The translations under genes were made by a program, and so were the position numbers. From contig OZ022587.1 of assembly GCA_963669155.1 (NCBI GenBank), positions 17,999,491 through 18,063,490 on the forward strand: a stretch of 64,000 nucleotides of DNA, written 5' to 3'. A model generated the notes under the pieces. The model searched no databases. It had not been told where the DNA came from and saw only the letters and a program-made list of their open reading frames with translations. Of the stretch, positions 8,696-39,390 are shown in pieces. The DNA comes from Arbacia lixula (Eukaryota > Echinodermata > Echinoidea > Arbacioida > Arbaciidae). Within the stretch, counting starts at the first letter, position 1, and each line of letters begins with the position of its first letter.

Positions 8696-8775
8696 GTTAA
8701 ATTGTCACTTGATGGATGTTGTTTAGCGCCAGAAACCTGCCTAAGGATGGATAAGATGACACCATTTTGGTACTA
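8545..8775. mobile_element. GAGTACC-family MITE, copy near PSMD9
   Basis: An element of about 230 bp whose left end (GAGTACCAAAATGTGATGTC, then TGTCAAGACAAGTGGTTCTA) and right end (ATGACACCATTTTGGTACT) are inverted relatives. Other copies are at 27405-27622, 34491-34722 and 35188-35405, with a truncated one at 6438. It is non-coding. Confidence 0.7.
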
Positions 8776-11709: not shown

Positions 11710-14700
11710 CTACTTGGTATAATGGTTGGCGGTGCCCTGTAGTCCCACATATAGCTGAAGTGTGACGAAGCCAACGGCCATCGTGAAGAGGGATTTAGCC
11801 ATAAGCAGGGTCCACGAGCCAAGACCAGCTGCATGGATGAGTATTCTGCAGGAATGGAAAGAGAGACATGAGTTACTCTTTCAGGAAGAAGGCCTTTATG
11901 CAGCAAAACTGATCACAATAAATTTGGCTTTTAAATCAGCAATGATATTTTTTCTATCAAATCTTTATTATTAATCATGCATTCACTTTTAAATTAATGT
12001 AACATCAAAAACATGAAATGTAGTGCAATAATTATGCTGATTTGAAGAGCTAAAGTGTGATTTCACTTTTTTCAGGGTGTTACCAATTTCATTTCATTTT
12101 AATTCATTTCATTTCATTTATTTAACAATTATAAAAATGAAACAACAAAATATAAAATATTTACAATTTGAAGATATTTTTTGTGATAATCTATTACCCT
12201 TATTTTGCTTTAAAAAACCATTATGAATGGAATACAAATTACTAAATGCCCAAACCATTATTTGATATAAACTTACTTGAATGAATATCAGTAGCATAAT
12301 TATAAATCAGAAACTTACTCAATAACTAATGGCTTGTATGAGCTGAGACCTAGCAAGGTGCCAACGATGGGCTGGACTGACTTGTTGAGATCATGACGAC
12401 ACCAGAGCCAAACCAGCGCTGCCGTTGATATGTGCTGAATCTACAGACGGGCAAACCAAACAGGAAGAAACAGTATTGATCATACCTTCTATTGAGATAT
12501 AGACAGGGTTTATATCCAGGGAAAACGTTCACCTGGGCCCCGTAACATAAAGGTTTGCGATCAATCGCAAAATGGCAATGGCCAATCAACATCATTGTTG
12601 CATGCGCTTTTAGCTCAAAAGACTGACTAGTAACCAATCAGAATTTGTCTTTAAAATTTGCGATTGATCGCAAACCTTTATGTTACGGGGCCCTGTTCTC
12701 CCCTGAGCCTGTGTGTTTGCGGGCTGTTTTTTTTACACTCGGAATCTAATCAGAGCAACTCCTGCATAATCCGCTACACAGCTATTAGACGACAGAGTAA
12801 ACTTTGAAATCTTTATAGAGCGCCATTAATCCACACCCCTTTGGTAACTATACTTAACTGGGCCAGTATTTATGAAGCCAGAATATCTAACTGTGAGCAA
12901 CAGGTTAAGAATATTTTAGTGAAAGGGCTCTCTGGGGTAATTTCAATTTACAAAGAAATTTTTAGCATACACCCAGTAGTAAGAATAGCATGCTCCATCC
13001 TGTAAATGAATGAAAAACAAGTAAAAACAAAATCTTGGAACCAGACCCTATTTGAACCTGCAATCTACTACTTACCAGGCAGCGACTTAAACACGCAAAT
13101 TATTTCTTGTTCACGGATCAAGACACAACAACATGGAAACAAATACCGAAGACTCTCATTTAATCTGACTCATTAACATTCATGAGTAGTCCGCCGTAAG
13201 GACCATAAGGCTAGATTTTAATGAAAGGGCTTTCTAAGGTAATTACATATTGCACGTTTAAATTCCATCTGGTTCCAAGATTTTTTTCGGACTTGTTTTT
13301 CATTAATTTATAGAATGGAGTATGCCATCTTTACTACTGGAAGTATGCCTAAAATTTCAAGAGAGTCAAGAGAGAGTCATAAAGCCAACAAAGTGAAGGG
13401 ATGAGGTAGCAGAACTAGAAAGGAAAGCAAGAAAGGAAATGGAGGGAAGAAGGGAAGGAATGACAGGGCAGAAGTAGAAAGGAGAGGAAGAACGGAAAAG
13501 GAGGGGGAGGGGAAGAAGAAGAGTGAGGGATCGGAACTGGACAGGAAAGGAAAGGAAATGAAGAAAAGAAGAGAAGGAAAAAGGGGTGAGGCAGCAAAGC
13601 AATGAGGAGCAGATAAGGAAATGAAGGAGTTAACACATTGGCTCATCTTCACAACAGTGGTTTAACTTAGACTGCTTACTTAACATACAACTTTATAACT
13701 TACAACTTAAGATTCTAACTTTATAGGGCGCAAAATAAATCATCTGATGCTGTCACAAAATCATTGATATTTATCACAGAATTTCAACAGTGGGTGAATT
13801 CAACGGATAAACCCAATAAACCATAGTGATTCCAAGGAAAAAATCCATGTTTCATGTTAGTTCAGGTTTAGCAAACTATGAAGTTAACCTACGGTTGTGA
13901 ATATGGGCGATTTACTCACAAGGTTAACATTTGACTCCAAGCTGAGTTGAATGTACTTCCAGTCAAACTCCGTCCCCCTCGCCCCGACCCACATAGGCAC
14001 CACTCTGGTCATGATCAGCTCCGCCGTGGCCCAGCCCACGCCCGCTACCAGGAACTTGAGTTCCCCTTTGGCTGACACGTTGTTCAGAATGAAATAGAAG
14101 CCGATGAGGTCCCCCAGGTCTACAGTAGATTTCATGAACTCCTACAGATATGAGCAAAAATAAAGATTTATAATTACAATGTACCGATAAATCCAACCTA
14201 AAATTTTGATGTTCTAAATCTGTTCTATCTATCAACTGTATTAATAAACTGTAGTTTAAACATAAAATCAACAGTTGAAAACTACTTATCAAATCTATCA
14301 AAAATATTGATGTTCTAAATTCATTGTTCAAATTATCACAAGCAGTAATCAAAATTGAAACTTCAGTTTTGCCACCTGCCTAACTCCAAGAAATCAAACA
14401 AGAAATGATTGAAATTGATTATCATGTACTACACCAACTGGAATGTCCAAGCTTCAATGTACCGATCAACTACATGTATAACAGCAATCACATTTTAAAC
14501 TTGCAATTTTCCCTGTTCCCTACCAAACACAATGATATTAGATTTTTTTTTATGAAAAGAAGTTAATGATCATTCATCAATCCAACGAGAATTGTTTATA
14601 CCTGTACTTAATATACCATATTTATCAATTGTAGTAATCCAATTAGAAAGTTCATTTAATTCTTTAACATGAATCAGTAATTTGAGTTTGCCTTCACTTC

Positions 14701-19568: not shown

Positions 19569-20700
19569 TTAACTTTTTTCAACACGACTTGTGTTTTCCT
19601 CCTGACTTTGGAAACTTCTTGCCTCTTTGCCACCTTTCTTACGATCAAGCAGCAGCGGGAACGTGTAGAGAAATGGGTTGATGGATGAGTTGATCGGGAC
19701 GACGAAGATGACCATCCAGGCGTAGACGGCGGAGGGGAGCGTCACCGATCCCGACTGCGACAGAATCCCCAGGATGATCACCGGCATCCAGCAGACGAAA
19801 TCCGTCACGATGATGAACGCCATACGCTTGGCTACTTTGATCTCTCTGTCCCGCCCGCCGGTGTTCCGAACCGACGACGTGGATCGGACGAGCTTAAGAA
19901 AGATGACGACGTAGGCGCTGAGGATGAAGATGAAGGAGCCGAAGTTTACCACAAGGTATACGATGATAGAGAATATCCAGGGTGGACGCGTTTCCACTGT
20001 CGACGAAACGAATCTGACGCCGACGGGTTGGGAGGACTCGTCACGAATAACCTCAAGATTGCCGGTACTGACTGACTCAACGTGCAGCGGCAGCCCGATG
20101 CAGACATCGGAGAGGCCGTAGATATCTGGTCGAACCGGGATCAACACCAGTGGAACCACGCTTAACCCGAAAGTGAAGACCCAAATAGCAGCAATGAAGA
20201 AGAGAGAGGACCGAGAACCTATCTTGTACCTGGCGAACGGAACCATAATCGAAATCAACCGATCAACGGTGATCAGAGTCAGTGTGAATACTGAAGCCTC
20301 GCTCGAGAGGAAACCAAGAAACGCAGCCAACAGGCAGACATAAGACTCCCGCCATTGCGGAGCACTCAGATAGTACTGATCCCCATAGTACAAGTCAGCA
20401 GCTACAATGATAAGCATGTACGCGCCCATGATAGAATCGGCAAATGCTAGGCTGTTAATGAAATAGTTCTGAACTTTACTGCTTTGCACATCCTGCCTGC
20501 ACATCCGGAAATACATAACCAGTCCGTTGCCGATGAGAGCGGAGAGCCCAAGGCCCCAACCCGCCACCCGAAGAGCAATCGAAGGAAAGATACTGCCGCA
20601 GGTGTCCAATGGACTGGATTGCGAAGTTTTGGAACATGTTACAGCGCCCTCACCGAGGGTCCGGTCCAGCAGACAGCAAAGACGCTCATCGGAGGTGGAG
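19569..20700 (-). CDS. Receptor exon 22: hinge and seven-transmembrane domain
   Basis: A single exon encodes the hinge with Cys residues, all seven helices and the tail, ending in TAA. Landmarks: GN in helix 1 (ALIGNGLVM), LAFAD in helix 2, Cys then VDRLISIM at the end of helix 3 (DRL in place of DRY), Trp in helix 4, DVCIGLPL in loop 2 (the GRL101-type cysteine), FVCWMP in helix 6 and NSSINPFLY in helix 7 (the NPxxY motif). Loop 2 is long, about 45 residues. The first codon is completed from the previous LRR exon. The upstream in-frame ATG at 20729 lies in the intron and is not the start. Confidence 0.92.
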
Positions 20701-23700
20701 CTGAAAAAAATATAAAGATGAGTACACACTCAGTTGGGTCGTGTCACTTAGAAGCGTCTCATCTAGAATTGTTTTGAGATGCTGTCTGCCCTAACGCTAC
20801 AATTTTTTTATGTATATCATTTTTTTTTTGTCAGAGCTAACGACATGTTCATCATTATTATCGCCATGGTCTTAATCGTCATTATCACTGCCAGTTTCAT
20901 TGCACACTATTAACATTATTATAAAACATCGTAGTCTCCTTGATCTCTTTACTAAACTTGATATTTTAAAAGCAAGAAAACACATTTTTTTTTTTACAGA
21001 TCGCGGGCAAACCCGGAACTGTCTTACTTACAGAGCCTGAAGCGATGTAAGTCCAGACAGTGTATCACGATGGACTGAACCCAGTTCTGTTCCAATTAAA
21101 AACCTGTAAAAGCATAAACACCCACAATTGACATACTGGATCGGCAAATTCCATTATGGTCTTTGTTAACTAGTTATGTCGATCGCCTTTAGATGTAGAA
21201 CAAATAGCAATGAAGTTCATGGAGAATCGCTACAGGAAGGTTAAGAGCTACTATGGTTTGGTAAAGGAAAATACGTTATCGAAATGGAGAAGTTTTATTA
21301 GGATGTTGAAGAGAGGATCTATATACGTTTCAGTTAAACATTTGAAGGCAGATGGTGAGCAAGTAGAGGCATAGGAGATGAACAACTAGATGGAGGTGTG
21401 CAGTCTTTTTCGCCAAAAGGACGGGTTAGATAAAGGGATTCAGGAGGTAAGAGGACAGTCATTTATCAATAAAAGTCATAAGAGAGTCACCAGATGACAT
21501 TGGATATTTACTAGAGGTAGATTGAGAAGGGAATCCCATACGGTTGAGTTAGAGACACTCCAGAGGTAGGTGGCGATTCAATATTAAATGTGGGTGAAGA
21601 TACACGCCATGAAGACGCAGAGGGCAGCTAGAGGTAAATACAAACGAACCTGATCACTAGATAAAGTGGATGTTTACTACAGGCGCAGCTAGATGCAACC
21701 CGGGAGAGTGAGTGGAAACCCACTAGAGGTAGGTAGCAACCCACAAAGATCCATTAGAGGTATGGATACAGAAGCCCTGCAGCATACCTGTACTGTGACT
21801 CTCATATGCTATGACTTGGCCCCGTGTTCAACGAATGCACGACGGATAATGTCAAGGTCACTGTCACACATATAGGGAACTAATCTCAGGAATAGTAAGC
21901 AAATAATCAACGTCGGTGAAGGTAATGGGACGAACTATCACTTCCGAGACGATCTGGATGTAGCTATCTTTCCGAAGCGCAGCTGAGGAAAGATAGCGTA
22001 TACATTCAGATCGACGAGGAAGTAATAGTTCGTCTCATTGCCTAAAACCAAAAGTTGATTATTTGCTTTATATTCCACATGTGTACCCAACTATCTATAC
22101 CAAAAATTACAATTTGACGTACAAAAGTAATGCTTAACTTCTCTACCTAAACCCGAGCCGCTGCCATGGGGAAAACGCGTAGAGGACGCGTGTTGGGACG
22201 CGCGTTAGGACGCGTGAGTAGGAGCTACGTAGTCCGAACGTAACGCACTTTTATTTCGCGAGTACTTAAAATATTGATCACGCGTTAGGACTGTCATGAC
22301 TGTGAGGAGTGAAGAGATCAGCGAAACCAAAAAGTACTATCACCTAGAGTGTAACGAACTTTTCTTCTCAGGTGATCAGATGGGCAAAACTACGCTTTAT
22401 TACGTGATCAGCTCTTGACCAATCCTATAGCAACATTCTTAGGATGTGGACTATAATGATACTTACATATAACGCAAGTTTGTGAGGTTATGAAAGGACC
22501 CAGCTCCAATGTATCGTATAGGGTTGTAACTGAGGTCCCTGGGGGGAAAAGGGTCAATGGAAAGACGAATCTCATCAACGCTCTAAGTAGTTCGTAAAAT
22601 TTAGTTCGCAATATATGTCATATAGATCGATACGACGTTAGTTTATAGTATGTGACCAAGTAAGGAGACAAGAAGAATCTAAACATTTGATTATCCGATT
22701 GGTTGTTTCAATTACAGCATATTATATGACTAAAGACAATTCAGAATTCAGAAACAGATATATGATATGGTTTTTCAAAAATATTGAAGGGATGCTCACT
22801 ACAATTATATACGAAATGTTAATGTTAAATACTATTATTTTATTTATGACTAGTTCTGTAATGCCGTTCTCATAGTAAATATCAACTAATAGTCATCAGC
22901 TGAAATATATTTTAAAAATTGGAAGCACATATGAATCATCATCTGATTATGGTGAAAGTACGAATAATTGTGTTATTTAGATCCTTTAGAACAAAATGAC
23001 ATAGAATACACAGGTTGATACATTCGTTAAAACGTACAAAAGAATACGTCTGCACTTTAATACGCAATATATCATATGAAAATACTTACATAAGCTGTAA
23101 TGCTGTAAGGCCAGAGACTGCCCCCGGAAGTAGTTCCTGTATCACATTTGCAGATAAGTTTCTGCCATAGAGAAAACATAAAAGTGTTGATGTTTGTCTT
23201 CCTGTACTTTTGCCGTTTATCTTGAACACTAATTTCTTTTACTTTGTCATGCTTGTTTGCGGTCAAACCGGTTTAACATTTTATCGTTTGTTCCTCAAGT
23301 AACCCCGTACGGAGCTTGCCAGAACACAACCTAAGATGTCGTTCATGTTTGCCCGGGTAGGCCAAGGATGTTATTAACTTACTTTGTAGTATTTGTGGTG
23401 TTCAGAATTACCATCTTCGTCTTGTACTGGTTCATATTTCAAGAGGGAAGCGTTACTCTTTAACTGTGATCTTAAGAAAAGAAATGTAAAGTAGAATAAA
23501 TGTCAAATAGCACATGGTGTAGATCTAAGAGTTAAGATCATCAACGCTAAAGGTAAGAGTATTTACAGTTCTTGAAGCTCGTCCAATCCCTCAAAGACAC
23601 CCGGCTGAATCTGTCTGAGATTGTTGAGTCCCAGACGTCTATCGGATAACACAAAAACAGATAAAAAATATTTTGCCTCTCAAACAAACAATAATTATGT

Positions 23701-24439
23701 TTTTACTCATTATGAAATATGATAGGATTTACCATGGCCACCAAATCAATGACCCACATGAACACTACACGGGATCACTGGTGTATATTTCGTCACCGGT
23801 TATCATTTGGTTATATTGGATAGAAAGAAAAAAATGACGGGGTTTCATTCCATGTTCGTTTTTAGTTTACCCCTTATGTGCCAACATTGTGTTTTGCACC
23901 AGTAAAGTGCACACAATGTAATAGATTAGCAATTCGTCTGGCACAGAAAGAGTTATAACTCCTTTTGCGCCAATGTTGATTTTGTGCACAAGTGATGCAC
24001 ACAACTACAGATTAACATTTTTACCGACACAATGGGGTTAAGTCTTTTCTGCACCGTTAATACACATATTTATCGTATACATCGTATAGATCGTATAGAT
24101 CGTATAGATCGTATATCGTATAGATCGGCATGTATAGATCGGCATATAGAAACTCGAGGAAGTGAAACAAGAGCAGGATGATAGCTTTTGAATTGTAGAG
24201 ATTTAACTGCATTATTCAACCATTATAAAAACGAAAGAAAAAAAGTACAACACAATTATTTACATACATAAAATAATAGTATGGACCCCTAACAAGCAAA
24301 TCTGCTTATGAGCGTGTCCATTTACATAACACCATGCATGCATAACAGTTATCGTACTACATCTATATAAAGTGAACGTTTTAATACATAAGCACATACA
24401 CGACACAGACATACATACATAAATACACACACACCCACA

Positions 24440-24493
<54 letters not shown>

Positions 24494-24547
24494 GACAAAC
24501 AATTGACGCACTAGACCATGCGCAACAAGGAATGAGATAGGAATAAA

Positions 24548-24582
<35 letters not shown>

Positions 24583-25984
24583 AGTTGTGTGTGTGGGGGG
24601 TGGGGGTGGGGTGGGGTGGGATCAGAGAAGGAGAAATGGTAGAACATGATGAAAAAGGGTACATTTTAAAGAGTCATTTCAACGATAGATGACATCATTT
24701 GAAATACACATTGTTATAAGACACCATTTAAATCTTGCAATACTTACATATATTTCATCGCCTTCGTGTTGGAGAACACCGAAAGTGGTAAAGTTTCTAT
24801 GTGGTTATTAGTGAAATTCCTGTCAAAGATCAAAGAATCACACTGTGATTTATCATATCTTTGTTATGTTCTAAAACGAAAGCAACAAATAGCAGATGAA
24901 GTGTATGGAATGTAATACATTGAACAAAAAATATGTTAGTTGATTTACATGTTAACACCATATTTACTCTTTCTATTTGGTAATCCTCACAAAAAGTAAA
25001 AACTTTAATTGTGACGCTTTTGATCTGAAGTCCCCATTATGCCCTATATCATTCTCTATTGCAGGCTAAAGGTCTCAATACAAAGATAGCGGTGTTGGTG
25101 GAGAGCATCATCCAACAGAAAATATTTACATACTTACACGTTTGTCAGGCTGATTGTGTCTACAAACAAGTCCGGTTCTAACTTGGTGATCTGATTTGAA
25201 TCCAAGTATCTGTATATTACGATAATGATAAGGAGAATGTTTAAATCTTCTTTGCCACCGTTTAATTTTTGCACTAATGATACATTATCTCCTATATACA
25301 GATATCTTTACTGGTGCTAAAGGGGTTGAATAGATTTTCCATAAGAATAGTTTAGAAGCAGAGGCAAAAGTGAAATCAGCAAAGTTTTCGAAATTCATTT
25401 GCAGCAAAATACAATATTTTATATTTCTAAATCTCCTTTGTAAAAAACAGGCCATTGGGCTCTGAAAAACAACCCTGTTTTTGTTCTTAGATAGAACTCA
25501 GAGAATAAAATAGACGAATTAATTTGAATAAAGCATGGTCATTTTCAATGAATCACAGTGCAGTGATTTATAATATGGTATCATAATGATAGATATCCTT
25601 AAAAAAAATACAAACATTGTAATAATTCTAAATTTTATACTTCAAAGAATTTTGACGAAGAAACAACCCAACAAACAAATTAGAGAACTGTGAAATGTTG
25701 TCAAGTAGTAACAGATATACAATCATATCAGTAAATGTTTGGCAGAAGGCTACTTACAGTATCTGTAACCGTTTCATATTGGTGAAGATTCCAGGCTTGA
25801 AGTGAGTGAGTCGATTGCTCGCTAGAGATCTAAGATTAACGAAAAATGGGTTGTATTAATAATTGTACTAACAAAGTCCATAGGAACAAAGGAACACTTA
25901 ATTGGGTACAGTTTATTCCACGTAAATGACAAGTTACCCGAAGCTCCCCAGAAGTATGGCAGTGCGAGGTGGTGTGCGGTATGT

Positions 25985-26068
<84 letters not shown>

Positions 26069-26131
26069 ACGTACACACACGAATACAAAAGAACACAACC
26101 ACACATATATACACACATACTCACTCGCACG

Positions 26132-26163
<32 letters not shown>

Positions 26164-28348
26164 TACACAAATCAAACAAATATGCGTAGAGTATGTGTTT
26201 TTCCACCCTTCAACCTGTGGGATGCCATTGCTTCTCCCCCCCCCCCCCCCCCCTCTTACTGTCTCCATTTTCTCCTTTCTCTCTAAACTTTTTCTGCTGT
26301 AATTCCGCTCTTTGCATCTAAATAAAGAAGTACTTACAGTATTTCAACGCTCATCAAGTCACTGAAAGCAGTCTGGTCTATCTCCACTATATTGGAGTGA
26401 TCCAAAAACCTAGGACAGAAGACGTATGTGTATGTAAAGTGAAGACAACAACATAAACTTAGAAGTTAATCATAGGAATGACAGAGATGACAAAATGCCA
26501 CTTGAAAAATCTATTTCGAAAGGCTTAGAAATGTCTCATAATATATTCATCATGCTTTATCACTCGATATTGTTAAGGAACTCATATATTCGACATTGTT
26601 CTTGCATATTAACAGGGATCCTACTTTGTATAGTTGCTTACATACATTCATGTTTACAGGGTCACACCCTAATGAAGAAAACACCCAAAAACTAATATGG
26701 GAAAGAGTACAAGAGCTACCCACTTCTGTACGCCTCACTTTTTGTGTCGCCTTGAATTGTCACCAAATGAGACACCGACCATCCCAACTGATCCGAGCTT
26801 CTCTCTCTCTGTCTCTGTCTCTCGTTGTCTCTCTCTCTCTGTCCGTCTGTCTCTCTCTCTCCTTCACTCTTGCCATGGACCCTAGTACGTAGTAAGGTCC
26901 GTGTTCTTTTTACCCCCTCCCCTCCTCTCTCTGCCCCTCTCTCCCTTCTCACTTGTAACACATAGACATTTAAGTTTCACTTCATTCTGCAGTGCTTACT
27001 ACGTATACTTACAGATAAATCAGTTTGGTTAAATTGCGGAAAGGAACACTGTCGACATACGTCAAATTGTTGGCGGCAAGAGATCTATCATGCAAAGGGG
27101 AAAGAGAAATAAAAAAAAAAACGAATGAGATCTGATATGTTTCTGCATTTGCCTAATACCTTTAGCTCCAAAGGATTTCTACAAAGTATTTGTGCAAATG
27201 AATGCAGAATACAGAATTGACAGAAAAACATCGTCTGCTAATGTTGATTGATTTCTGCACATTTGAATCTACAAATGATATCACCAGCGATCACTATACG
27301 TTTAAGATATGGTAATGATGATGGGAGTTAACTGTGACTTTGTATATTTATGTACTGGTTTTATATTTCTGTTCGACAAATTATATTTATCTTAATCTAA
27401 TAGAGTACCGAAGTGGTGTCGTCATATGAGCATGTTGCCAAGACAATTGGCGCTAAACAAACTCGCTCTAGTGAGAGGTTTAGCAGGCCGATATTGTCTA
27501 TCGGGCTAGTATCGGGCATCCCTTATTACAGTCTCCGTTCTGATCACCGCTGCTTGCACTACCCGCATTGTTTAGAGCCAGTTGTCTTGACAATAATGCT
27601 GAAATGACGTCACACTTCGGTACTACATTGACTTTGAAGAGATATACCATGCAAATTATAGAGATAGATATATGGGGGATGAAAGAATGGGCGTAAATGT
27701 GTGTGTGTTTGTGCTTGTGTGTGTGCGTTTGTGTGCGTGTGTGAAAGAATGGGTGTATAGAGCTAGTGAATGTGAAGGAGAGAGAGCAAAAGAGAGGGAA
27801 CTAGATATTAGAAAATTAAAAGAGAGTGGGATAGTGGGCAGGAGAGAGAAAATGGGAGAAAACTAAAAAAGATTAGGTGAAGGGGTGGGGCGGTTTTGTG
27901 TCTCACATGAGTATGGTGAAGCCTGCTATATCCTGGAACACACCCGTTTCTACTTTGGTGACGTCGTTGTATTTCATGTATCTATGGGCAAAGGACAAAC
28001 ATTACATAATCATGTATGTGTTAAACGCCACCCTTAAATCTTTATGTGCCAATGGTGCATTTTGGCACAATTATTACGCACAAATCCCATCGAGCAGCGA
28101 GTTTTCTGGCACATATAGGGTTAAGCATAACATCAAACCTCATAATTTCTTAATTTCCATTATTTTAACAAACATCCTCTTCTCTTCCATAACAATTGCA
28201 ATAGTTTGTACCTCGCATTATTTTCACCTCTCTCTTGTTTTTCAGTCATGTTGGCAGTCTTATCGGTCTGACTGGTTTCAGGTCTGTCTATCTCGCTCTC
28301 CAGTCCATCTCTCTCTCCTCCCCTCTCTTCTCTCTCTCTCTCTCTGCT

Positions 28349-28394
<46 letters not shown>

Positions 28395-29959
28395 GGCCTC
28401 TCTCTCACTCTCTCTCTCCCCCTGCCCCTCTCTCTCTCTCTCTGCCTCCCCCTCTCTCTTTATATCGTTTCCTCTTTCTCCTATTATACCTCCCCCCTCT
28501 CTCCATCTCTCTTTCTCTATCGTTTTACTACCTTTAATTGCCCTTGCACACTGTGATTATCGCAATTTGTATGAATTGATAGAGCCTGTCATACTTACAC
28601 ACCCACCATATTCACGAACCCACCAAAGATGCCCGGTTCAACATGAGCTATGGCGTTATACTCAAGACGCCTGTATGAAATGGTGATATGACGAGATTTA
28701 GCGACATTGACAATATAAACCAAAGAAAGAAGTAAAAGCGGAAGAAGAATAATAATAAGAAGAATAAAACTTAATTAACCATGCAATTGTGGATAGTTTC
28801 ACCATTAATACACATGTATCACACAGAGCAGCGTTTTGTCTGGCACAAAATTAATATTTAAAATTTTATCAGACTGCACACATCTATCTTGTAACTAAAT
28901 TCATATTGAACTACTTACCAGGAACATGATTTACCTATATCGGGCAGCCAACAACCCACAAGCAGCTCCTTGAAGGAGAACTCCGGTCCAAAAATAAAAT
29001 ACTCTCAACAACAGAATGTACCTCTAAGGAGCAGTGCAACAACAACAAAAATAATACGAAAAATCAGACAACTACTGGATATGAAAATTATTAATGTTTT
29101 GCTAAAAGGACAGTTGGCATTTGAGGTAGGCAAATTGGCAAAATCAGTTTTTGTGACACAAACTCATCTGCCTCATATTATGTTGCACGCGTTGAATTAC
29201 CAAAGTTATAAAAGCAAAAATACAAACAAACAAAAATGACTCGCTAATGTTTTTGCTACACTCACATATGTGTCACTCTGCGCTGCCGTTCAATCAGGAA
29301 ATTTGCGTCGACCTTCTGCGGAGTATAATCTTCCAGAACCTCCTCAAAATCCCTGAATGTTGTTGGAGCATATAGCGGCTGAATAAGACGTAAAATATCG
29401 TCCCTCTCGAGGTCGCTGAGATGATATTCGTCCGTCGACCTTAATTCATATCATAGAGACATAAAAATGTTGTAGTTAGTTTAAAAACAACTTAAAAAAA
29501 CACATCATTTACGTTTCTAGTCATGATCATGTTTTTGTATATTGTATGCAATGTCGGGAATTCTCCATACAGCTATTAAATTCAGCAAAGTTTTCAGATA
29601 AATAAGTATAATTTTGACTATACACGAGCCCCTTATTGTAATCATAATGGGTATCTAATAATGACCAAAAGATGTACATGTATTATGTTCATTTCAAGTA
29701 TTGTTTAAAGTGATGACATACTGATTGGTTGTTCCTGTCCAAATATTGGATTTAAAAGAAATAAAATCGTCTTCGTTTTGTTGAATACTAGGTAACCTCT
29801 GAAAACGATTGCAATCAGAGCTCTGTTGGCATGATTAGCAAACCAACGTGAAGTAGTATCAGCGCATTTGTTAAACCTGCCCAGGTTTATCCGCAGTCAT
29901 CACATAAATAAAACATGTTAAAAATTGCATAAGATCATCTCAAAGTTTTTAATCTCTCC

Positions 29960-30015
<56 letters not shown>

Positions 30016-32180
30016 ATCTATCTCTCTGTTAATTACAGTCCTTTTATACATGTATCACTACAATTTTTCAATGTTTTCTTTACTCACATGCATCTTAACG
30101 TTGTGTTTTTTCGATCAGGATCCGGCATTGGGTTACAAACGCCCCAATCTGTAATAAAGCGGTGTAAGTATTTAAAAGTATTTCTTATAATGAATTCGGG
30201 AAAATCAAACATAATAAAATGCACGATAAGCTATATACAATTCGCTGTGTGCAGGAACATTTTTGTATGTACATGTATGTGTTTGGATAATATATGGGTA
30301 TATAATGCAGAAAAAATAGGAGGCTGCGATATCGCTGAAAATGTACATGAAAATAAAAATATATATATATATAAAAACGCCAGACAAGAACAATATGCTC
30401 AAAAGTTTGCCCGCAGACCTTTATCACGAGTCAATATATATTATTTTATAATCTTACATTTATATAATGGCAGTAGGTCTACATCCAGATTATCACTACT
30501 CTTCCCTTTACCAAAAAAAAAAAAATACACAAATCGCGGTTGCAAATTTAGATTTGAATTTTACAGAAAGATCCACATGAAAACCAGCAAGAAATGAAAC
30601 CAGTCTGAATTAAACCTTACCGGGTCCGTCAACGCATAACTCTACGATGGGACTGCACGTCCATTCTAAATAGAAAGCATGACAAAGGAAATACATACAC
30701 ATTATGTTATCATGTTCAGTGTATATGGTATATACTTATATATATATATATACATATTACTATATCATGTATAAACGAATATATATATGGATATGCTTAT
30801 ATTTAAATGTATGAATATATGAGCATGGTAAAGTATATATAAATACATATGACCCAAACCCCCATTTAAACCAGATATCTACATGATCTATCAATGGACG
30901 AAAAGGATCAATATCGCAAGAGCTTTTTTCAAATGCTTATTTATCATCACTTCATGATATAAATAGAGTTGCACAATATAGACATGTTATAAGCCATGAA
31001 AGCTTAGTGTTCAGCCCTCTCTCTATAGATTAGGTCGTATCCATGGTTTCGTGGTATCGCACAGAGATTGCTGATTCATTCAATGATTGATTTAATTAGC
31101 TCACTGAATAGCTAGGCACGGCATAGGCGAATGCATACCTTTCAGAATAAATAGATTTAGCACACTATATAGTGCGACACATGAATAACTGAAAGGTCGT
31201 ATCAACTGATGAACGTACACACACTTAGGTAAACAACCGCCACTAATACATTAAAACACAAGGTAATGAAAACTAATTTAATGGTAGATGTGAACGATTA
31301 ATTACAATTAGCTGTACGTTATGATATCTGATGAACAATTACCATGAACAACATTTTGCCGAATGCACAGAGCGTTAAGGATACAATTGGAACAAAATTC
31401 TTTGAATTTGAAATACTATACAATCTTACCATTGTGATAAGCTGTCTGTTCACATACGCCCACAATGCAAGAGTCATTTTGCACCATTACTACGAAAGAG
31501 ATAAATAAATATCATTCTTCAAATGAAAATCCATTATTCATTATTATTTGTATGGTATACTATGTATTCGTTCTCTACAAAAGATTATTGCCGTAGACTT
31601 AGAAAACTACACAAACAATCATTATGGCAATGGCTACATGCTGGATTCTTATTAAACACAGTGTAATACTTTATTTTATAACCGTTGGCCGATACTACAA
31701 GAAGAAAACTATCAAGAGACTAATCTATTCAAATAAGCCTTGTTTGTAATGTATTCACAATTTTCGTCGCATTACAAACTGCGTAGTGATCTGTCTTCAG
31801 TTGGTGGAATGCAATATGCACTATGAATTGATTAGTTGTTGCTACTCGAACAAACCTTGGGAAAGCTTTGGGGTTGTCATAGTAGCGTATTGTTTGAATG
31901 CGTATACATAACGGACATGATTTACACTTCCTTCCATCTCCCCATCTTCTGGAAGTAATTCCAACTAGAATAAAAAAAACATAAATAAATAAGTGTACAA
32001 ATCCATACATGGTGGAGCACCGAAGGTAAAGGGGACGAATATATTTTAAATATGTAACCGTATGTAAAAGAAAATGAGAACCGGGGAAAGGGAGAGGGGA
32101 GAGCTCTAGAGGGAGATTGTAAGAGTGATAGATAGATAGAGAGATAGACAGATATATATAGAGAGAGAGACAGGGAGAGG

Positions 32181-32218
<38 letters not shown>

Positions 32219-32769
32219 AAGAGAGAGACATACATACATACATACAAACAGACAGACATACATAGAGAAAGAAAGAGAGAGAGAGAGATAGCGAGAGATG
32301 AAAACAATAGAGGGAGAGAGAGAGAGAGATGGAGAGAGTAAAAGAAAGGTATTGGGCAAGTGATACTCAGGTAGGTAGAGATGAGAGTGTATGCATGATG
32401 GAGAAAGAAATAGTGAGAGAGAGAGAGAGGGGGAGGGAGATAGATGGAAAGAGAGAAAGAGAGAGGGAGAGAGAGGGGGGGTGGGGCGGGGTTAATGGTG
32501 ATGGAGAAGATAAATCAAAAGAAAGGCAAATTGCCCATTTGTTTGGAAACAAAAACACTCACAACTGGTTTCACAGCCGTCCTCATCCGACCCGTCCGGG
32601 CAGTCTTCGTCCAAGTCACATCGATACGAGGCTGGGATGCAGCGGGTATCGTCTGTGCCGTTACACCAGAACTGGTCCGAGTTACATACTCTCCCGACTA
32701 GAAAGATAATTAGTTCACTTCAGTTCATGCCTGTTTTTTTCCCTCAAATATAACATATTACAAAAACTT

Positions 32770-32821
<52 letters not shown>

Positions 32822-33449
32822 ACTATCTATCAAAATGCCAAATCTAGTGACGTAGGTGATCACGGAATGCCGCAACTAACTGTCCTGAACTATCCATGAA
32901 AGCTGCTCGTCACTACAAAGAACTCCTTGCTCCATACAGTCAGGCCGCTTGTCCAAGTAATTCGCTCTCTTCCTCTTCCTCTTTTCCATCCGTTCTTCCG
33001 GTCAAATATAATTCTTCAAAGCCATGCAAAAGCAATATCAAACAGAAAAAGATGCAAGCACTTACCACAGTCCTGTTCATCCGATTCATCGTCGCAGTCG
33101 TTCTCGGCGTCGCACCTCCACTCAGCCGGAATACATCGATCAGATAGATGACAATGAAAGTCCGTGGACTCGCAAAGACCGCCTGTCGAATAGAACAACG
33201 CCTTAAAATTGTGTGTTTCCCTTCTTTCCATATCGTTACTTTTAATACATGCCTTCTGGATACGAGGCTCAAGTTTGAGACATATTCTATAACTTGAACG
33301 CCACTGTTGCTACGTAGAAGTCTCAAGTCTAATTGATGAAAACCATTGGACAAAAATGTATAATTGTGACATTTCGTGCAATTATCGATTTTAAAATAAG
33401 TTTTTAAAGTGCAATATCATGTACTACATTGAAACCGCAAGCACAGACC

Positions 33450-33506
<57 letters not shown>

Positions 33507-36500
33507 GAGAAAGAGGGATAGAGAGAGATAGAGAGAGGGAAGACATTGAATGCGGTCTTCATACGCAATTGGTCATTCTGTACAGATTCTTTGAAATAAA
33601 TTAAAAATATTTTTTTCAAAGGAATAACGAAATATGGTCTTTATAGATAGTTGGTCCTTCTCTAAAGGTAGTCATTTCAACAGGCTCCAATGTAGGTTAT
33701 ATATGTACTGTATCCTGCAGTCCTTTATGTGTGTATGTATTATGTATGTCAGTGTGTATTATATAATATTCACTGTATGTATATATTGCACTGACATTTG
33801 TATGTTTTATATACGTATGTAGACTGGTCGATGTGGACGATATATCTTAAGTAGAACTATGTCGTATTCACCCGTCTATCTACCAGTCTCTTCTGCTACA
33901 TCGGTCTATATACCTGACTATATCTATTTATATCGATTCTTTAACCAGTTTTTACGCGAATCTATGTCAAATTTAACGCTTACATATCTGCGTTAAAGGC
34001 CACCATAAACGGTACGATGTGGTGACGATTCTCCATTCGTAAGGCCTGACGGCTGGAAATGTGACGTTACATCCTTGTACAAATTAAATGACTGGATCCT
34101 GCGATTCATCCCGTCGCAGAGTCGTACGACTAATGAGATCGTGTAAAGTAGAGTGGTATTTCGAATCACGAATTTCGATGTCTTTCTGTCTCTCTTTACG
34201 TGACATTCCAACTTACTGTCTTTCTGGCAGATATACGGCTCAGATTGGTAGCACCAGTTGTCGTTCCAGCCGCCGTGTCGATAGGCCAAGGTGCTGGACC
34301 ACAGACATGCGCAGTCCTGACCCGGCCACCCGTCATCGGGCTGGGGGCCCGACCACGCCTGGAAACTAGATCGCCGAGATTAAACGGGTTAAAACTGAAT
34401 TCTTCATTCAGCATACAGAGACAAGTCTGCCCATAATGCACTGCGCAGCTACCTCTGAATCATGCCATTATACCCACTTCCAGTGTCACAGAGTACCGAG
34501 GTGTGACGTCATTTGAGCGTTAATGTCAAGACAACTGGTTCTAAACAATACGGGAAGAGCAAGCAGCGTTGATCACAGCGGGGACTGTCTGTAATTGGGA
34601 ATGCCCGACACTAGCCCGATAGACAATATCGGACAGCTTAACCTCTCATTGGAGTGAGTTTGTTTAGAGCCAAATGTCTTGACAACATGCTTATGAATTA
34701 TGACGACACCACTTTGGTACTCTATACTCTTACGCACTAGACTAGTGCATAACTGCACACACAATCAGGATGTTGCTGTGCAGTGCATTGTGGGACACAG
34801 TATGGAGAATCAAAATCAAATTGAACTGAGTTGATACAAATAACTCAGAACAGAAACATGTGTGTCTTTCAAAGATATTCTACGTCACGGGATACGACAC
34901 TTATTTTGACGCTATTATAGATTTAGTTCAATTCCATCCTTAACCTGAATGTTGCATGCTGCTATAGAGTGTAATACAGAGTACGACGATATTAGTTATA
35001 GCAATTGTTTGTAAAGGATTTATATTCATCCGTGAAATAATAAAATGATACAATAATGCACTTTTTATATGACTCAAAAAGTAGGATAACATTCTTGCAA
35101 GATAATTTAAATTTTTAATTGAGGGAAGGCAATGAGAAAGGTAAGGCTTGTATCACAGTAGACTCCTCACAGCTTCCTTCAATGGGCAACGAAGTGTGAC
35201 GTCATATGAGCGTGTTTCCACGACAACTGGTTCTAAACTAAGAGGGTAGAGCGATCATCGGTGATCAAAGCGGGGACTCTCATTGTGAGTGCCCGACACT
35301 AGCCCGCTAGACAATGTTGGGCGAGTGAAAGTCTCATTGGAGTGATGTTCTTTAGAACCAGAAGCCGGCATAAAAATGGATGTGACGACGTCACTTCGGT
35401 ATTTGATACCACGGTTTATTGTAGAGCTTGGATTAGAAATGTCTTAAAACAGAGTGCCTGAAAGCCAGATAAATTTGGTTACTGTTAGTGGGAGAAACTG
35501 CCCCTTACCCAAAGATGTGTAAGGAAGGAGAAGATACTTGAGCATAATACATACAAACATCTGCATGAATATAATATCGCGTTAATGAATATCAACAGTA
35601 CATGTATTCCAAAATCATGACAATGCTTTGATGCCCCATGATTAACACCGATATTTAAGCGGATGTCAACTTGGAAAGAAATATGGCTCTAGAAGCTTTG
35701 TTTCTTATTTTGCCATTTTCAAAGAAGGTGAGGGCAACACCGTTAGAAATCCTCTACTCGGCTTTCGGGACTTAAGAATGATGAATTAATTGAGAAATAA
35801 CATATCTTTATCACTTACACACTTGACTCTAAATCTCTATCTGTACCCCTTCCTTACCCAAGAGGGGTTCCATCGATCCATTCAAAGTACCCCTCGTTCG
35901 CAATGTCCGTCAACCCGAGCCAGAAACAACGCGTCTCAGGTAAGCCCGGGGAGATTAAGACTGTCAGGAATTCCTAGCAAAACGAAATTCAGAGGAGTCA
36001 TTATGATGACAACAATTTCCAATTTGCATGATTTGTGTAGTTTTAAATAGATATCAGTGACAAGCTCACGTTTTCAAAAAACTATGAAAAAGGTGCACCT
36101 CGAATGAAGCTGAAATTGGAAGAATCCTCCTTATTTTTTGGAGGGGGTGGGGGGGGGGGCGGTTGCTTGACATTTCATCAAATAAATTTTTCATCTGACA
36201 AATATCTTAGAAGTAAAAGTACAACCATATATGTTTTAACTTGTAAAGTTCATACCTGTATTGTAATATTTTTTCTTTTTCTCTTTTATTTGCTCTGAAG
36301 CGCCTTGAGCATCTAATTAAGATGGAAAGTACGCTATTAAAATTGTTTGTATTATTCGTATTATTAGTATCAATAAAATCTAACAAAAACTGGCTACCAA
36401 GATTTTTACATCATTTGACTTCAAAATGTGTACATTGCAGTTTAAATCGTGTTGTAACTCTTATGGGAAAATAACTAGTGTTTATGTAATGTATTGGGAT

Positions 36501-36950
36501 GCAAAACGGGTACATTATATTGGTTATTATCCTTCACAGGAAATTCCTCTTCCACTCTTCAATGTACAAATATAAATAAAACATACATAGACATATAATT
36601 ATCTGACATAAACATAAGCATATATCAACAGAGCATTACTAATATCAACATAAACACGTATAAAATGCGGGAACAACATTCAGTGCATCAATGCATCTTT
36701 ACTCACATTAATCTTCTTCGTCTTGCTGAGCGCCAGTTCGCCTCCGAGATCGCGACACACCTGTTTAGCATCGATGAACGGAATGTTCGCTGAATACTCG
36801 ATCATGTAAAGAGTTCTTCCGAGCTGTTTCCAATCTGTAATGTCACTAGACTCGCCCAGAACTTTGAACGGAGCAAAGAAATCAAACAAATACATGACAT
36901 CCATATACTGATACTACTATTTCTAATACTACTTCTACCAATATTACTAT

Positions 36951-36996
<46 letters not shown>

Positions 36997-37030
36997 GCTA
37001 CTACTACTACTTCTACTACTACTACTACTT

Positions 37031-37114
<84 letters not shown>

Positions 37115-38103
37115 ATACTTCTACTACTACTACTACTACTTTTACTACTACTACTACTTCTACTACTACTACTGCTACTACTACTATTACTATTACTACT
37201 ACTACTACATGTACCATGATATTTACAACTACTAATGCATTCTTATGAGCGCATATTTCAAAATCATTTGTCACGTGTTCCAACAACAACAAAAATCTTA
37301 GAAAAGAATAAGAGATAGGAGACAAGGGGAGAAAGTGAGAGAGTAAGAGTAAGAGTATTAATTTTTAAAAAGTTGTACTTTTGATATTACACTGTAAATG
37401 TAAAAACAGGGGCACGCGGAAGAGTAGCAACGAGTTAAGGCATGCTACTATTCTTTTACTAGTGGTTAAATTTTCAAAGGAGACGGAAGAGGAAAATGTG
37501 TAAAAGTAGATATGAGAAAAAATAAAAAATGATAATTGCATAACAAATCATAGCATGGTAACAATGATTTCAACATTGTACACCTTTCGTAACAGGTCTT
37601 ACGGAATTGGGGCTCTAATCGCAGCGGAAAACAAACATGTTACATTTTAAAGGGAATATACTGGGAAGACAAAAAGCTCTCAAAAAGGTGATCGCGAGCA
37701 ATCTTCTTGCCGATGGTCTTAAATACGTGTATTATTCATTTTAGAAACTTGCTGAAATTTATTTGCCCTCAAATGATCCACATTTGGAGTAATTAGTCTG
37801 TTAGTGATCCTCAAAATGCTCGGCTCAAACATTTTGAGGATTTTTTTTAATTGAATCACTACTTACTCCAAATGTTGATCATTTGAGAGCAAACCCTTCT
37901 CAGCAAGTTTCTAAAATGGACAATGCATGAATTTAAGACCATTGGCAGGAAGATTGCTCACGATCACCTTCTGAAGGCTTGTTGTCTTCCCAGTACAGTA
38001 AATACCCTTTACACATCCTTAGCTCTTATGATGACTTACCTATGTGCCCAACAAGACTGTAAAACGACACGATGCCAATGAGGAAGAAAGGCGCATATTC
38101 CAT
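19569..38103 (-). CDS. C-type lectin/LDLa/LRR G protein-coupled receptor, GRL101/RXFP-like (type C LGR)
   Basis: Exons in transcript order: 38040-38103, 36707-36861, 35858-35934, 34217-34365, 33066-33182, 32563-32697, 31430-31489, 30621-30665, 30088-30148, 29266-29439, 28599-28670, 27907-27981, 27013-27084, 26338-26409, 25758-25829, 25138-25209, 24748-24819, 23567-23638, 23090-23161, 22467-22538, 21032-21103, 19569-20700. They sum to 2964 nt, one frame, about 987 residues. Order: signal peptide (1-22), C-type lectin (about 30-147), two LDLa (about 152-231), Cys-bearing linker (233-345), 11 LRRs (345-611), hinge, seven helices (650-945), short tail. The plan matches leucine-rich-repeat receptors of the relaxin/GRL101 class, probably at the cell surface, with the lectin domain as the unusual part. 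Ligand and G-protein coupling are unknown. The exact start of exon 2 is uncertain (36861, or a second in-frame site about 18 nt downstream). Exons upstream of the ATG could exist. Confidence 0.88.
21032..28670 (-). CDS. Receptor exons 11-21: eleven leucine-rich repeats
   Basis: Eleven consecutive exons each encode one LRR. Ten are exactly 72 nt and one (27907-27981) is 75 nt. Every intron interrupts the codon after its second base, so each exon is a 24-residue unit such as [16 protein letters not shown] or [16 protein letters not shown]. This one-repeat-per-exon, phase-2 plan is standard in glycoprotein-hormone and relaxin-type LGRs and lets repeats be gained or lost without a frame shift. 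The repeats should form the horseshoe ectodomain that presents ligand to the helices. Confidence 0.9.
21898..22067. mobile_element. Fold-back element in receptor intron 20
   Basis: An inverted repeat with arms of about 70 bp. The left begins AGCAAATAATCAACGTCGG and the right ends with GTTGATTATTTGCT. The inner part (GCTATCTTTCC, GCGCAGCTGA, GGAAAGATAGC) folds tightly. It is a solitary, non-coding, MITE-like element. Confidence 0.75.
24062..24145. repeat. Short tandem repeat (TATAGATCG unit)
   Basis: Imperfect head-to-tail copies of a 9-bp CGTATAGAT unit in the intron between LRR exons 17 and 18. Confidence 0.8.
24425..24640. repeat. CA and GA microsatellites with G-rich tail
   Basis: (CA)n at about 24425-24491, (GA)n at about 24553-24579, then a GGGGTGGGGT tract. 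The tandem reading frames across it are artefacts. Confidence 0.9.
25987..26165. repeat. Long CA microsatellite
   Basis: About 180 bp dominated by ACAC with a few T, G and A interruptions, in the intron between LRR exons 14 and 15. A poly-C run follows at about 26237-26253. Confidence 0.95.
27405..27622. mobile_element. GAGTACC-family MITE in receptor LRR intron
   Basis: The left end GTACCGAAGTGGTGTCGTCA and the right end TGACGTCACACTTCGGTAC are inverted copies. The inner arms repeat GCCAAGACAATTGGCGCTAAAC and its inverse in near-match form. It belongs to the family at 34491 and 35188. Confidence 0.75.
28310..28520. repeat. CT-rich microsatellite
   Basis: A (CT)n tract with C-rich interruptions inside the intron between LRR exons 11 and 12. 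The 269-residue frame covering it is not a gene. Confidence 0.9.
29266..31489 (-). CDS. Receptor exons 7-10: cysteine-bearing linker between LDLa and LRR regions
   Basis: Four exons (31430-31489, 30621-30665, 30088-30148, 29266-29439), three of them 45-61 nt. They encode segments such as [30 protein letters not shown] and [13 protein letters not shown], then an acidic helical-looking stretch with [12 protein letters not shown] before the LRRs. I do not recognise a named domain. Phases are 1, 1, 2, 2 and join exactly on both sides, the main reason to accept such short exons. The 29266-29439 exon has a clear open frame but a weak acceptor (AATTAAG). Confidence 0.75.
29957..30012. repeat. CT microsatellite
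   Basis: Pure (CT)n in the intron between receptor exons 9 and 10. Confidence 0.95.
32120..32480. repeat. GA-rich microsatellite block
   Basis: A compound of GA, GATA and CATA runs, about 80 bp from the end of LDLa exon 6. Large open frames over it are artefacts. Confidence 0.9.
32563..32697 (-). CDS. Receptor exon 6: second LDLa module
   Basis: It encodes one LDL-receptor class A repeat with six Cys in normal order and the calcium cage [10 protein letters not shown]. In relaxin receptors the LDLa module is needed for signalling rather than ligand binding, so a similar role is possible. Confidence 0.92.
32771..32831. repeat. CTAT microsatellite
   Basis: About 15 copies of CTAT in tandem in the intron between the two LDLa exons. 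Confidence 0.98.
33066..33182 (-). CDS. Receptor exon 5: first LDLa module
   Basis: It encodes a complete LDLa repeat with [14 protein letters not shown] and the calcium-binding string [11 protein letters not shown]. It enters and leaves in phase 1, so it could be skipped without breaking the frame. Confidence 0.93.
33451..33540. repeat. GA microsatellite
   Basis: A nearly pure (GA)n run followed by GATA variants, in the receptor intron between exons 4 and 5. Confidence 0.95.
34217..36861 (-). CDS. Receptor exons 2-4: C-type lectin domain
   Basis: Exons 36707-36861, 35858-35934 and 34217-34365 make a full C-type lectin fold. Landmarks: [13 protein letters not shown] at the start, [34 protein letters not shown], the QPD triplet, then QDC, WND, WC and ICQK. 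QPD plus WND is the classical calcium and sugar-binding signature, and QPD usually goes with galactose-type specificity. The four canonical Cys are present. Exon 4 starts at TTTCCAGGCG, because the competing acceptor 7 nt later breaks the frame. Confidence 0.92.
34491..34722. mobile_element. GAGTACC-family MITE in receptor intron 3, copy A
   Basis: About 232 bp, with long inverted ends (GAGTACCGAGGTGTGACGTC and GACACCACTTTGGTACTC) and inner inverted arms around TGTCAAGACAACTGGTTCT and AGAGCCAAATGTCTTGACA. It is non-coding and about 125 bp upstream (in the transcript) of exon 4. Confidence 0.8.
35188..35405. mobile_element. GAGTACC-family MITE in receptor intron 3, copy B
   Basis: The same family as 34491-34722, less than 500 bp away, with CGAAGTGTGACGTCATATG at the left and GACGACGTCACTTCGGTAT at the right. 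Confidence 0.8.
35510..35765. mobile_element. Partial CAGGGATGTG-family element
   Basis: It aligns with the left half of the 56373-57099 element (AAGGAAGGAG, CATCTGCATGAATAT, CAACTTGGAAAG, GGGCAACACC) but lacks a matching right end. Confidence 0.6.
36270..36365 (+). mobile_element. SINE/LINE-type 3' tail
   Basis: CTGAAGCGCCTTGAGCATCT followed by a GTACGCTATTAAAATTGTT box and ATT-rich repeats. This is the typical shape of L2/V-SINE-type 3' tails in many animal genomes. No matching head region was identified. Confidence 0.5.
36910..37209. repeat. Long TAC trinucleotide repeat
   Basis: About 300 bp of (TAC)n with TTC and TGC variants, in receptor intron 1 about 50 bp from the lectin exon. Confidence 0.97.
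37648..38012. mobile_element. Large fold-back element in receptor intron 1
   Basis: About 365 bp with arms of about 160 bp: TAAAGGGAATATACTGGGAA at the left, and the inverse near CCCAGTACAGTAAATACCCT at the right. The inner arms share CTCAAATGATCCACATTTGG and its inverse, and the core is CTCAAAATG/CATTTTGAG. It ends 28 bp from the signal-peptide exon. Confidence 0.85.
38040..38103 (-). CDS. Receptor exon 1: start codon and signal peptide
   Basis: It encodes [18 protein letters not shown], a short hydrophobic leader, then a GTAAG donor in phase 1 that joins exon 2 in frame. A possible acceptor (CCATTTTCAG) lies directly before the ATG, so an untranslated exon may precede it. Confidence 0.75.
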
Positions 38104-39390
38104 CTGAAAATGGAAAATCAATATAACATAAAATACGCCTTAAAGACCTTCTGATGGTAAAAAACAAGAAAATGAAGATAATAATTATTTTTATACTGTA
38201 TAAAAAAAATCTCAATGATAGAACTGGAAACGGACTTTGAACAGAATTAAAGCGATTAGCATATTTCGAGGAGATTTTAGACGGGTCGTTAAAAACTTCC
38301 CGGTCCTTGAAGCCTTGAGACCGGACACCGTTGTCTGTCCCACGATGCATGCGTTCAATGCGGTGCTGATATGGTGCTGATAAGAACCTTTCTTACGTCA
38401 AAATGGTGCTCGTAAGCACCAAAAATGCTGCCGCTATTGTGACAAGACTGAGCAGCTATTGCGAACCTTATCCAATGCTGTGCTGACGAGTAACATTATG
38501 AATCAACTCTTTGCATTCCATATGTCTATCAATTTACAGGTAGTACACACAAATCCCGTAGACTGCCGTTCTGTCTGGCATTCAAAAGTTTAAGCACAGT
38601 ACAACTAACGAGATATAGAGGTAGATATATATTAATAGCCGGAATCGCTAATTCCTAAATAGAATAGACGGAGCACGCGACAGCACGCAGTTAATTACTG
38701 GGAAGACTTGTGACAGATACGGCATGATGCTATGTAATAACAAATCCATTAGCACGATTACATGAGAGCTCCGAATGAGCTGCGGATGCTTATGTAGTGA
38801 TTAGATAATGCATCACGAAACGTGAGTCCGGATTCCTTTTTGATTGAAAGTTTAAAATGCCTACATCTCCCAAAAAAATGTCAATTGTCCTCAAGGACAT
38901 TACAAAAATAAATGGTGAAGACTTTGAGTTGTCACGCTGAATAAATAATAAAAAAAAAGGTGATGCTTGTATTCCTATCCGGGAAATGTATTTGTTTCTT
39001 TAAATTCTACAATATATACGGTAAAGAAACTTGAATTGGAAAACACTTAATATTGAGTTCATGGTAGGATTCAAAGGCATTGAAAACGTTGTTGCTATAG
39101 TGGGAATTCGTCTAAAGTTATCTGTAAATCTATTTCCTATCTATTTAACAGATCGGTGCCTACTACTTCAGCTAATATCATTTTAACAGATAGTGGATAT
39201 CAACATGTTTCAAGCTTTTGTCTCAATGGAAGCATAATTTGCTGGCTTACAAATGCTCGCTCGTTATTAAAATAAAGATAATGGCTTCAACTCTACTTCT
39301 GGTTTAGGTTTGAAATTATTGAAAGTTATTTTAGAACTGCAAGGCGTTGGTTTCATGCCGTACACAAATATCACGTAGAGAGCTACATAT

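Follow-up and report, generated by a model that had tools for sequence, protein, structure and literature searches.

In a 64,000-nucleotide stretch of contig OZ022587.1 (the window), we identified on the minus strand a gene for a seven-helix receptor that begins with a C-type lectin domain (CTLD). From the N- to the C-terminus, the encoded protein consists of a signal peptide, the CTLD, two LDLa modules, a Cys-rich linker, eleven leucine-rich repeats (LRRs) and a seven-helix (7TM) domain. By domain criteria, both the LDLa modules and the LRR-7TM unit being present, it is predicted to be a type C-like LGR of the relaxin-receptor/GRL101 group. The explanation that we favour, and to which we give about an even chance, is that exon shuffling gave a receptor of this type a galactose-type CTLD, placed between the exon for the signal peptide and that for the first LDLa module, and that the receptor works anchored by the lectin. 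The domain plan has been known since 2025 from snails, and the gene described here is a further example of that published kind.

Gene model

The preferred model, which lies on the minus strand, opens with an ATG at 38103, ends in a stop codon at 19569 and joins 23 exons in a single frame, giving 3,015 nucleotides of coding sequence and 1,004 residues. GT-AG ends were found at all 22 introns, and the phases were consistent across every junction. Apart from those of exon 11 (1.0) and exon 4 (4.6), the acceptors scored between 6.2 and 14.1 (remaining 20). An earlier note on this DNA had described 22 exons and 987 residues; its single frame, its strand and its exact start and stop were retained, whereas the exon count and the length gave way to 23 and 1,004 in the preferred model. 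The exons are as follows.

Exon 1, 38040..38103, minus strand: start codon and signal peptide (21 residues); hydrophobic leader with a 10-residue Kyte-Doolittle maximum of 2.29
Exon 2, 36707..36834, minus strand: CTLD part 1; phase 1 in, 0 out
Exon 3, 35858..35973, minus strand: CTLD part 2, with the CFWLGL core
Exon 4, 34217..34365, minus strand: CTLD part 3, with QPD (residues 111-113) and WND (residues 136-138); ends in phase 1; acceptor below average (4.6)
Exon 5, 33066..33182, minus strand: LDLa module 1, phase 1-1; Pfam PF00057; Ca2+ motif (12 residues)
Exon 6, 32563..32697, minus strand: LDLa module 2, phase 1-1; Pfam PF00057; Ca2+ motif (12 residues)
Exon 7, 31926..31964, minus strand: linker, uncertain exon; alternative 3' end at 31917 or 31908; strong acceptor (14.1)
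Exon 8, 31430..31489, minus strand: Cys-rich linker
Exon 9, 30621..30665, minus strand: Cys-rich linker
Exon 10, 30088..30148, minus strand: Cys-rich linker; phase shifts from 1 to 2
Exon 11, 29266..29439, minus strand: N-terminal flank of the LRR array
Exon 12, 28599..28670, minus strand: LRR 1 (72 nucleotides, phase 2-2); missed by the LRR pattern scan
Exon 13, 27907..27981, minus strand: LRR 2 (75 nucleotides)
Exon 14, 27013..27084, minus strand: LRR 3
Exon 15, 26338..26409, minus strand: LRR 4
Exon 16, 25758..25829, minus strand: LRR 5
Exon 17, 25138..25209, minus strand: LRR 6
Exon 18, 24748..24819, minus strand: LRR 7
Exon 19, 23567..23638, minus strand: LRR 8
Exon 20, 23090..23161, minus strand: LRR 9
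Exon 21, 22467..22538, minus strand: LRR 10
Exon 22, 21032..21103, minus strand: LRR 11
Exon 23, 19569..20700, minus strand: hinge, complete 7TM domain, C-tail and stop; 7tm_1 match, best solved relative RXFP1

Exon 7 (39 nucleotides) is uncertain, with three donors that keep the frame. When these were scored with a matrix built from the 21 other donors of the gene, 31926 reached 7.8 and the other two 1.8 and -0.9; because 31926 scored best, the 1,004-residue form was preferred over a 1,010-residue exon 7 variant. The Pfam domain search and the lectin-skipping calculation reported below used the 1,010-residue variant. Omission of exon 7 leaves the frame intact, with 22 exons and 991 residues, and the 22-exon model of the earlier note may be close to this form. 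At the weak acceptor of exon 11, an alternative in frame at 29415 scored 1.8. A further acceptor at 29490 was rejected because, despite its higher score (6.7), TAA follows within four codons (frame judged by eye), and an additional exon near 29023-28935 was ruled out because exons 11 and 12 are already in phase when joined to each other.

The start ATG sits immediately after TTTTCAG (38103-38117; acceptor score 6.4), so that a 5' untranslated exon or a further N-terminal coding exon upstream is possible. Skipping of exon 8 preserves the phase, yet a stop arises where exon 7 then meets exon 9 (31964-30621); the 16 other symmetric single exons (n = 17) can be skipped cleanly. AlphaFold2 on the exon 23 frame alone gave a poor model (mean pLDDT 45.6, pTM 0.28).

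Domain content

The combination of a lectin, two LDLa modules, eleven LRRs and seven helices in one protein model, as the earlier note had proposed, was recovered with all of its parts. A Pfam search matched each domain type: Lectin_C (2.1e-16, profile positions 5-107 of 107), Ldl_recept_a (PF00057, two stretches, 5.3e-18), LRR_8 (2.4e-48) and 7tm_1 (4.2e-26), all four exceeding the curated cut-offs. The Cys-rich linker region, searched likewise, matched no Pfam family.

All eleven LRR exons are in phase 2-2, ten of them 72 nucleotides and one 75 nucleotides long. As a chance control, both strands of the window were scanned for phase 2 open exons of 69, 72 or 75 nucleotides between AG and GT that matched an LRR pattern. 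The scan returned 10 exons on the minus strand, which were 10 of the 11 LRR exons of the model, and no exon on the plus strand; in ten order-2 Markov sequences of 64 kb each it picked up a total of one. A tblastn search of the window for a second copy of the gene, with the model as query (E ≤ 1, low-complexity regions filtered), matched only the gene's own exons save for cross-matches between the two LDLa modules.

Relation to relaxin receptors

When the LRRs and the complete 7TM domain were used as the query, the best solved match was RXFP1 (PDB 7tmw, 3.2e-58), and the LRRs through transmembrane helix 4 (TM4) and the second extracellular loop (ECL2) aligned as one stretch. The 7TM domain alone again placed RXFP1 first (6.4e-34), followed by the TSH, FSH and LH receptors. 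The 7TM motifs GN, D-R, CWMP (CWxP) and NPFLY (NPxxY) are in place, the alignments show an ECL2 core common to the gene product and RXFP1, and the Ca2+ motif is kept in both LDLa modules. Together with the position of the LDLa modules N-terminal of the LRRs and the LGR-type rhodopsin 7TM domain, these matches bear out the earlier assignment to the relaxin/GRL101 plan.

The protein thus has the order of LDLa, LRR array, hinge and 7TM domain of RXFP1 (a type C1 LGR), with the CWxP and NP..Y motifs. Unlike RXFP1, it adds a CTLD, a second LDLa module and the Cys-rich linker, and its ECL2 is about 27 residues longer. With GRL101 and other type C2 LGRs (Lymnaea and ambulacrarian orthologues) it has in common more than one LDLa module, LRRs and a 7TM domain. 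In contrast to Lymnaea GRL101, for which twelve LDLa modules and six LRRs are described (PMC8286064), it has two LDLa modules, eleven LRRs and an added CTLD, although the LDLa count differs among species, with six in Acanthaster, for example. Two LDLa modules, LRRs and a 7TM domain are also described for starfish receptors of the LGR4/dilp7-receptor type (Patiria and Acanthaster, PMC8286064) and for the RGPR of Patiria pectinifera (PMC7682835), but those descriptions are without a lectin domain.

The lectin domain and its probable insertion

QPD and WND at Ca2+ site 2 are both present in the CTLD. As described in PMC7618208, QPD permits galactose-related binding, whereas EPN goes with mannose, fucose and glucose binding. 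Because the CTLD carries QPD and WND, Ca2+-dependent binding of Gal/GalNAc is a plausible prediction. The half of the CTLD containing the sugar site had among its best single-CTLD solved matches a scavenger-receptor lectin (2ox9, 1.7e-9), aggrecan (1tdq, 3.4e-9) and the GalNAc-specific CEL-I (1wmy, 3.8e-9). The CTLD therefore resembles galactose-type CTLDs by the QPD motif (MGL) and by sequence similarity (SRCL and CEL-I, both of which we take to carry QPD). It differs from them in that it caps a G-protein-coupled receptor (GPCR) and in that its galactose binding is predicted from motifs only.

The CTLD exons 2-4 (393 nucleotides) are bounded by phase-1 introns and form a symmetric 1-1 block between the signal peptide and the LDLa modules. 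Skipping them in the 1,010-residue variant leaves an open receptor of 879 residues, in which the signal peptide leads into the first LDLa module; without the CTLD block, the receptor is an intact relaxin-receptor plan, which is what an origin by exon shuffling would lead one to expect. Phase 1-1 is likewise found for the LDLa exons and for exons 7-9 of the linker, and phase 2-2 for the LRR exons. This arrangement suggests a mosaic gene assembled by exon shuffling, with the CTLD probably inserted behind the signal-peptide exon.

Proposed mode of action and alternatives

In the reading that we favour, the gene structure, the domain order, the intron phases, the motifs and RXFP1 as the nearest solved relative are observed, and the steps that follow are conditional. 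Exon shuffling would have placed the CTLD between the signal-peptide exon and the first LDLa exon. The CTLD, outermost in the protein, would bind Gal/GalNAc-type glycans with Ca2+ and so keep the receptor attached to a glycosylated surface or ligand; the bound glycan could be microbial or self. This docking may set the LDLa modules and the linker against the LRR/7TM unit, with the LRRs as a putative ligand platform. The LDLa module of RXFP1 is described as essential for activation and has been termed the true ligand, with Leu7, Tyr9 and Lys17 as its activation residues (PMC4837482, PMC3822782), and by analogy the LDLa pair here could act as a tethered agonist. Output would be through a heterotrimeric G protein, most likely Gs if RXFP1 is a guide.

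Several points weigh against this reading. The top overall CTLD matches are multi-CTLD proteins of the mannose-receptor family rather than galactose lectins, although their rank is favoured because scores sum over several repeated domains. When the query began at exon 11 and was cut at ECL2, the non-GPCR LRR proteins IGFALS (9.8e-53) and LRRC15 (4e-46) outranked RXFP1 (2.8e-41); the LRR signal alone therefore does not decide the family. Neither the 9 pattern matches in a viral contig collection nor the 65 in a genome contig collection yielded a confirmed relative by which conservation could be judged. The coupling and activation steps are drawn wholly from analogy. In addition, D231/E233 and E277/D279 of RXFP1 bind the arginine cassette of relaxin (PMC4837482), and three of these four acids are replaced here (D231 by N, E233 by T and D279 by N, with E277 kept), as judged by eye on an alignment in which the numbering was deduced from D-x-E and E-x-D pairs that lie 46 residues apart. 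With one acid in four kept, a vertebrate-type relaxin is unlikely as the ligand. Because starfish relaxin-like peptides are also described as lacking the arginine cassette (PMC7682835), the lost acids weigh against vertebrate relaxin only, and a relaxin-like ligand is still possible. Although the architecture is that of a relaxin receptor, the protein is better not classed among relaxin receptors by ligand.

One alternative, which we consider possible but on the unlikely side, is that the protein is primarily a receptor for an insulin/relaxin-like peptide, which the LRRs would bind, and that the CTLD is an accessory stalk or tuning module rather than the trigger. This is consistent with the relaxin-receptor plan, with the rank of RXFP1 as the closest solved relative, with the argument of Veenstra that ambulacrarian type C LGRs, including GRL101, have insulin-related ligands (PMC8286064), and with the reported response of starfish RXFP/LGR3-type receptors to relaxin-like peptides (PMC11863921). 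Against it stand the retention of E277 alone among the cassette-binding acids, with the bearing on vertebrate relaxin just given, and the intact QPD/WND site, which suggests that the lectin is in use.

A second, equally tentative alternative is an innate immune pattern-recognition GPCR, in which the CTLD would sense parasite or microbial glycans and the 7TM domain would signal, as proposed for SudRes2 of snails; it overlaps with our favoured model, the glycan being foreign. The QPD/WND site is present, and an equal domain set is reported for ten genes of SudRes2, a locus linked by association to schistosome resistance, with associated variants throughout the GRL101 cluster (PMC12297450). However, the validated and top-outlier SudRes2 variants are reported in a Zn-RING-IAP neighbour and not in a GRL101 gene (PMC12297450), and no paralogue of the gene studied here was found in the 64-kb window.

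The lectin-anchored model can also be taken further, to a glycan-gated relaxin-type receptor in which the lectin and the LDLa pair would form a coincidence switch that lets the tethered agonist fire solely while the lectin at the outer end sits on a galactosylated surface; we regard this version as doubtful. It is improbable that the protein is an endocytic or adhesive receptor whose CTLD and LDLa modules both bind cargo, be it galactosylated glycoproteins, lipoproteins or gametes: the CTLD has its best solved matches in the mannose-receptor family and the LDLa pair in LRP2/LDLR, all of them endocytic receptors, but the LRRs through the 7TM domain match a signalling LGR.

Finally, exons 1-4 could encode a secreted lectin and exons 5-23 a separate LDLa-LRR-7TM receptor, which we consider very improbable. 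The joining of lectin and receptor exons comes from the gene model and not from a transcript, intron 4 holds a single ATTAAA (at 33246), and an ATG frame at 33562 in this intron has a hydrophobic, low-complexity start (10-residue Kyte-Doolittle 1.52). However, the only donors of that frame, GTGCTT and GTTTCA, are non-consensus, and none of the eight intron 4 ATG frames of at least 15 residues has both a hydrophobic, leader-like beginning and a consensus donor in phase 1. Intron 4 is short (1,034 nucleotides) and contains no AATAAA, exon 4 reaches a good donor without a stop in phase 1, the phase in which exon 5 begins, and a separate receptor gene would be without a signal peptide. Phase symmetry, the exon 4 donor and the scan of intron 4 thus lend little support to two genes and agree with the single lectin-LDLa-LRR-7TM gene first proposed.

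Known receptors of the same plan

The closest described counterparts are the SudRes2 receptors of Biomphalaria sudanica, ten complete GRL101-like GPCRs with an N-terminal C-type lectin, LDL class A, LRR and rhodopsin-type 7TM domains, which are accompanied in the cluster by two possibly incomplete genes (PMC12297450, Nat Commun 2025). The SudRes2 region is associated with schistosome resistance; the variants that were validated and those that are top outliers map to non-coding sequence of the neighbouring Zn-RING-IAP gene, while the GRL101 cluster has associated variants distributed across it (PMC12297450). The lectin is described there as unique to these genes, and six more genes outside SudRes2 bear GRL101, CTL and LDL annotation (PMC12297450). 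Compared by the published description, the gene in the window, joined by our model, has the same set of CTL, LDL, LRR and 7TM domains in one protein. The snail genes are clustered and their LDL repeat is given in the singular, whereas here a single gene without a paralogue in 64 kb has two LDLa modules and eleven LRRs.

The view that such a system is under-described in general was therefore not borne out, the same domain set having been in print for snails since 2025 (PMC12297450). Beyond the snail work and its preprint (PMC11722531), no description of a lectin-LDL-LRR-7TM plan was found among the matches listed in the open-licence PMC literature, where absence is weak evidence. The main texts of PMC8286064, PMC11863921, PMC6267866 and PMC4079206 do not use the word "lectin"; the receptor domains named in PMC7682835, where this word was not searched, are LDLa, LRR and TM only. 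Veenstra reports that every ambulacrarian species studied has a single orthologue each of LGR3, LGR4 and GRL101 (PMC8286064). With an echinoderm as the source, the gene is either one of these three with an overlooked lectin or an extra receptor.

Surroundings in the window

A dispersed repeat with a look like that of miniature inverted-repeat transposable elements occurs in both orientations at 8551-8731, 27426-27624, 34492-34694 and 35180-35360 (families D12, D13, D15, I3, I10), the last three copies falling in introns of the receptor gene. Intron 1 of the receptor also contains an inverted repeat at 37685-37970 (I2), with arms of 113 nucleotides that are 86% complementary and 60 nucleotides apart. 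In general look, the repeats of the window are reminiscent of sea-urchin families.

Scattered EGF-like exons lie on the plus strand at 49548-57855; those at 54396, 55074 and 57733 score above the Pfam EGF cut-off and that at 49548 below every cut-off. They probably belong to a multi-EGF gene that is head to head with the receptor gene. On the minus strand, 13959-14120 is an exon of a small membrane protein with a match to Pfam DUF2053 (PF09767, 5.5e-18), a family that we take to be TMEM147. A plus-strand frame at about 2142-2333 matches Nas2_N with 21.1 bits, under the cut-off of 23.2, and presumably resembles the proteasome assembly factor PSMD9. A direct duplication with a period of about 2.2 kb occupies 4650-8413 (families D8, D9, D14, D16, D17, D20; 81 to 100% identity), within which 6599-6798 reads N. 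Rfam gave no match over the window at the gathering score.

Significance

To our knowledge, GPCRs that read sugars directly have rarely been described. Because exons 2-4 are symmetric, the lectin can be cleanly deleted, which offers a way to ask what its role is. A second, differently built lectin-LGR outside snails would show a wider spread of this plan. With an echinoderm as the source, the gene would add a receptor to a family reported to have one LGR3, one LGR4 and one GRL101 per ambulacrarian species surveyed (PMC8286064). A plan common to molluscs and deuterostomes would then point either to an old bilaterian receptor class that is absent from the ambulacrarian LGR survey or to repeated capture of a lectin by the same receptor family.

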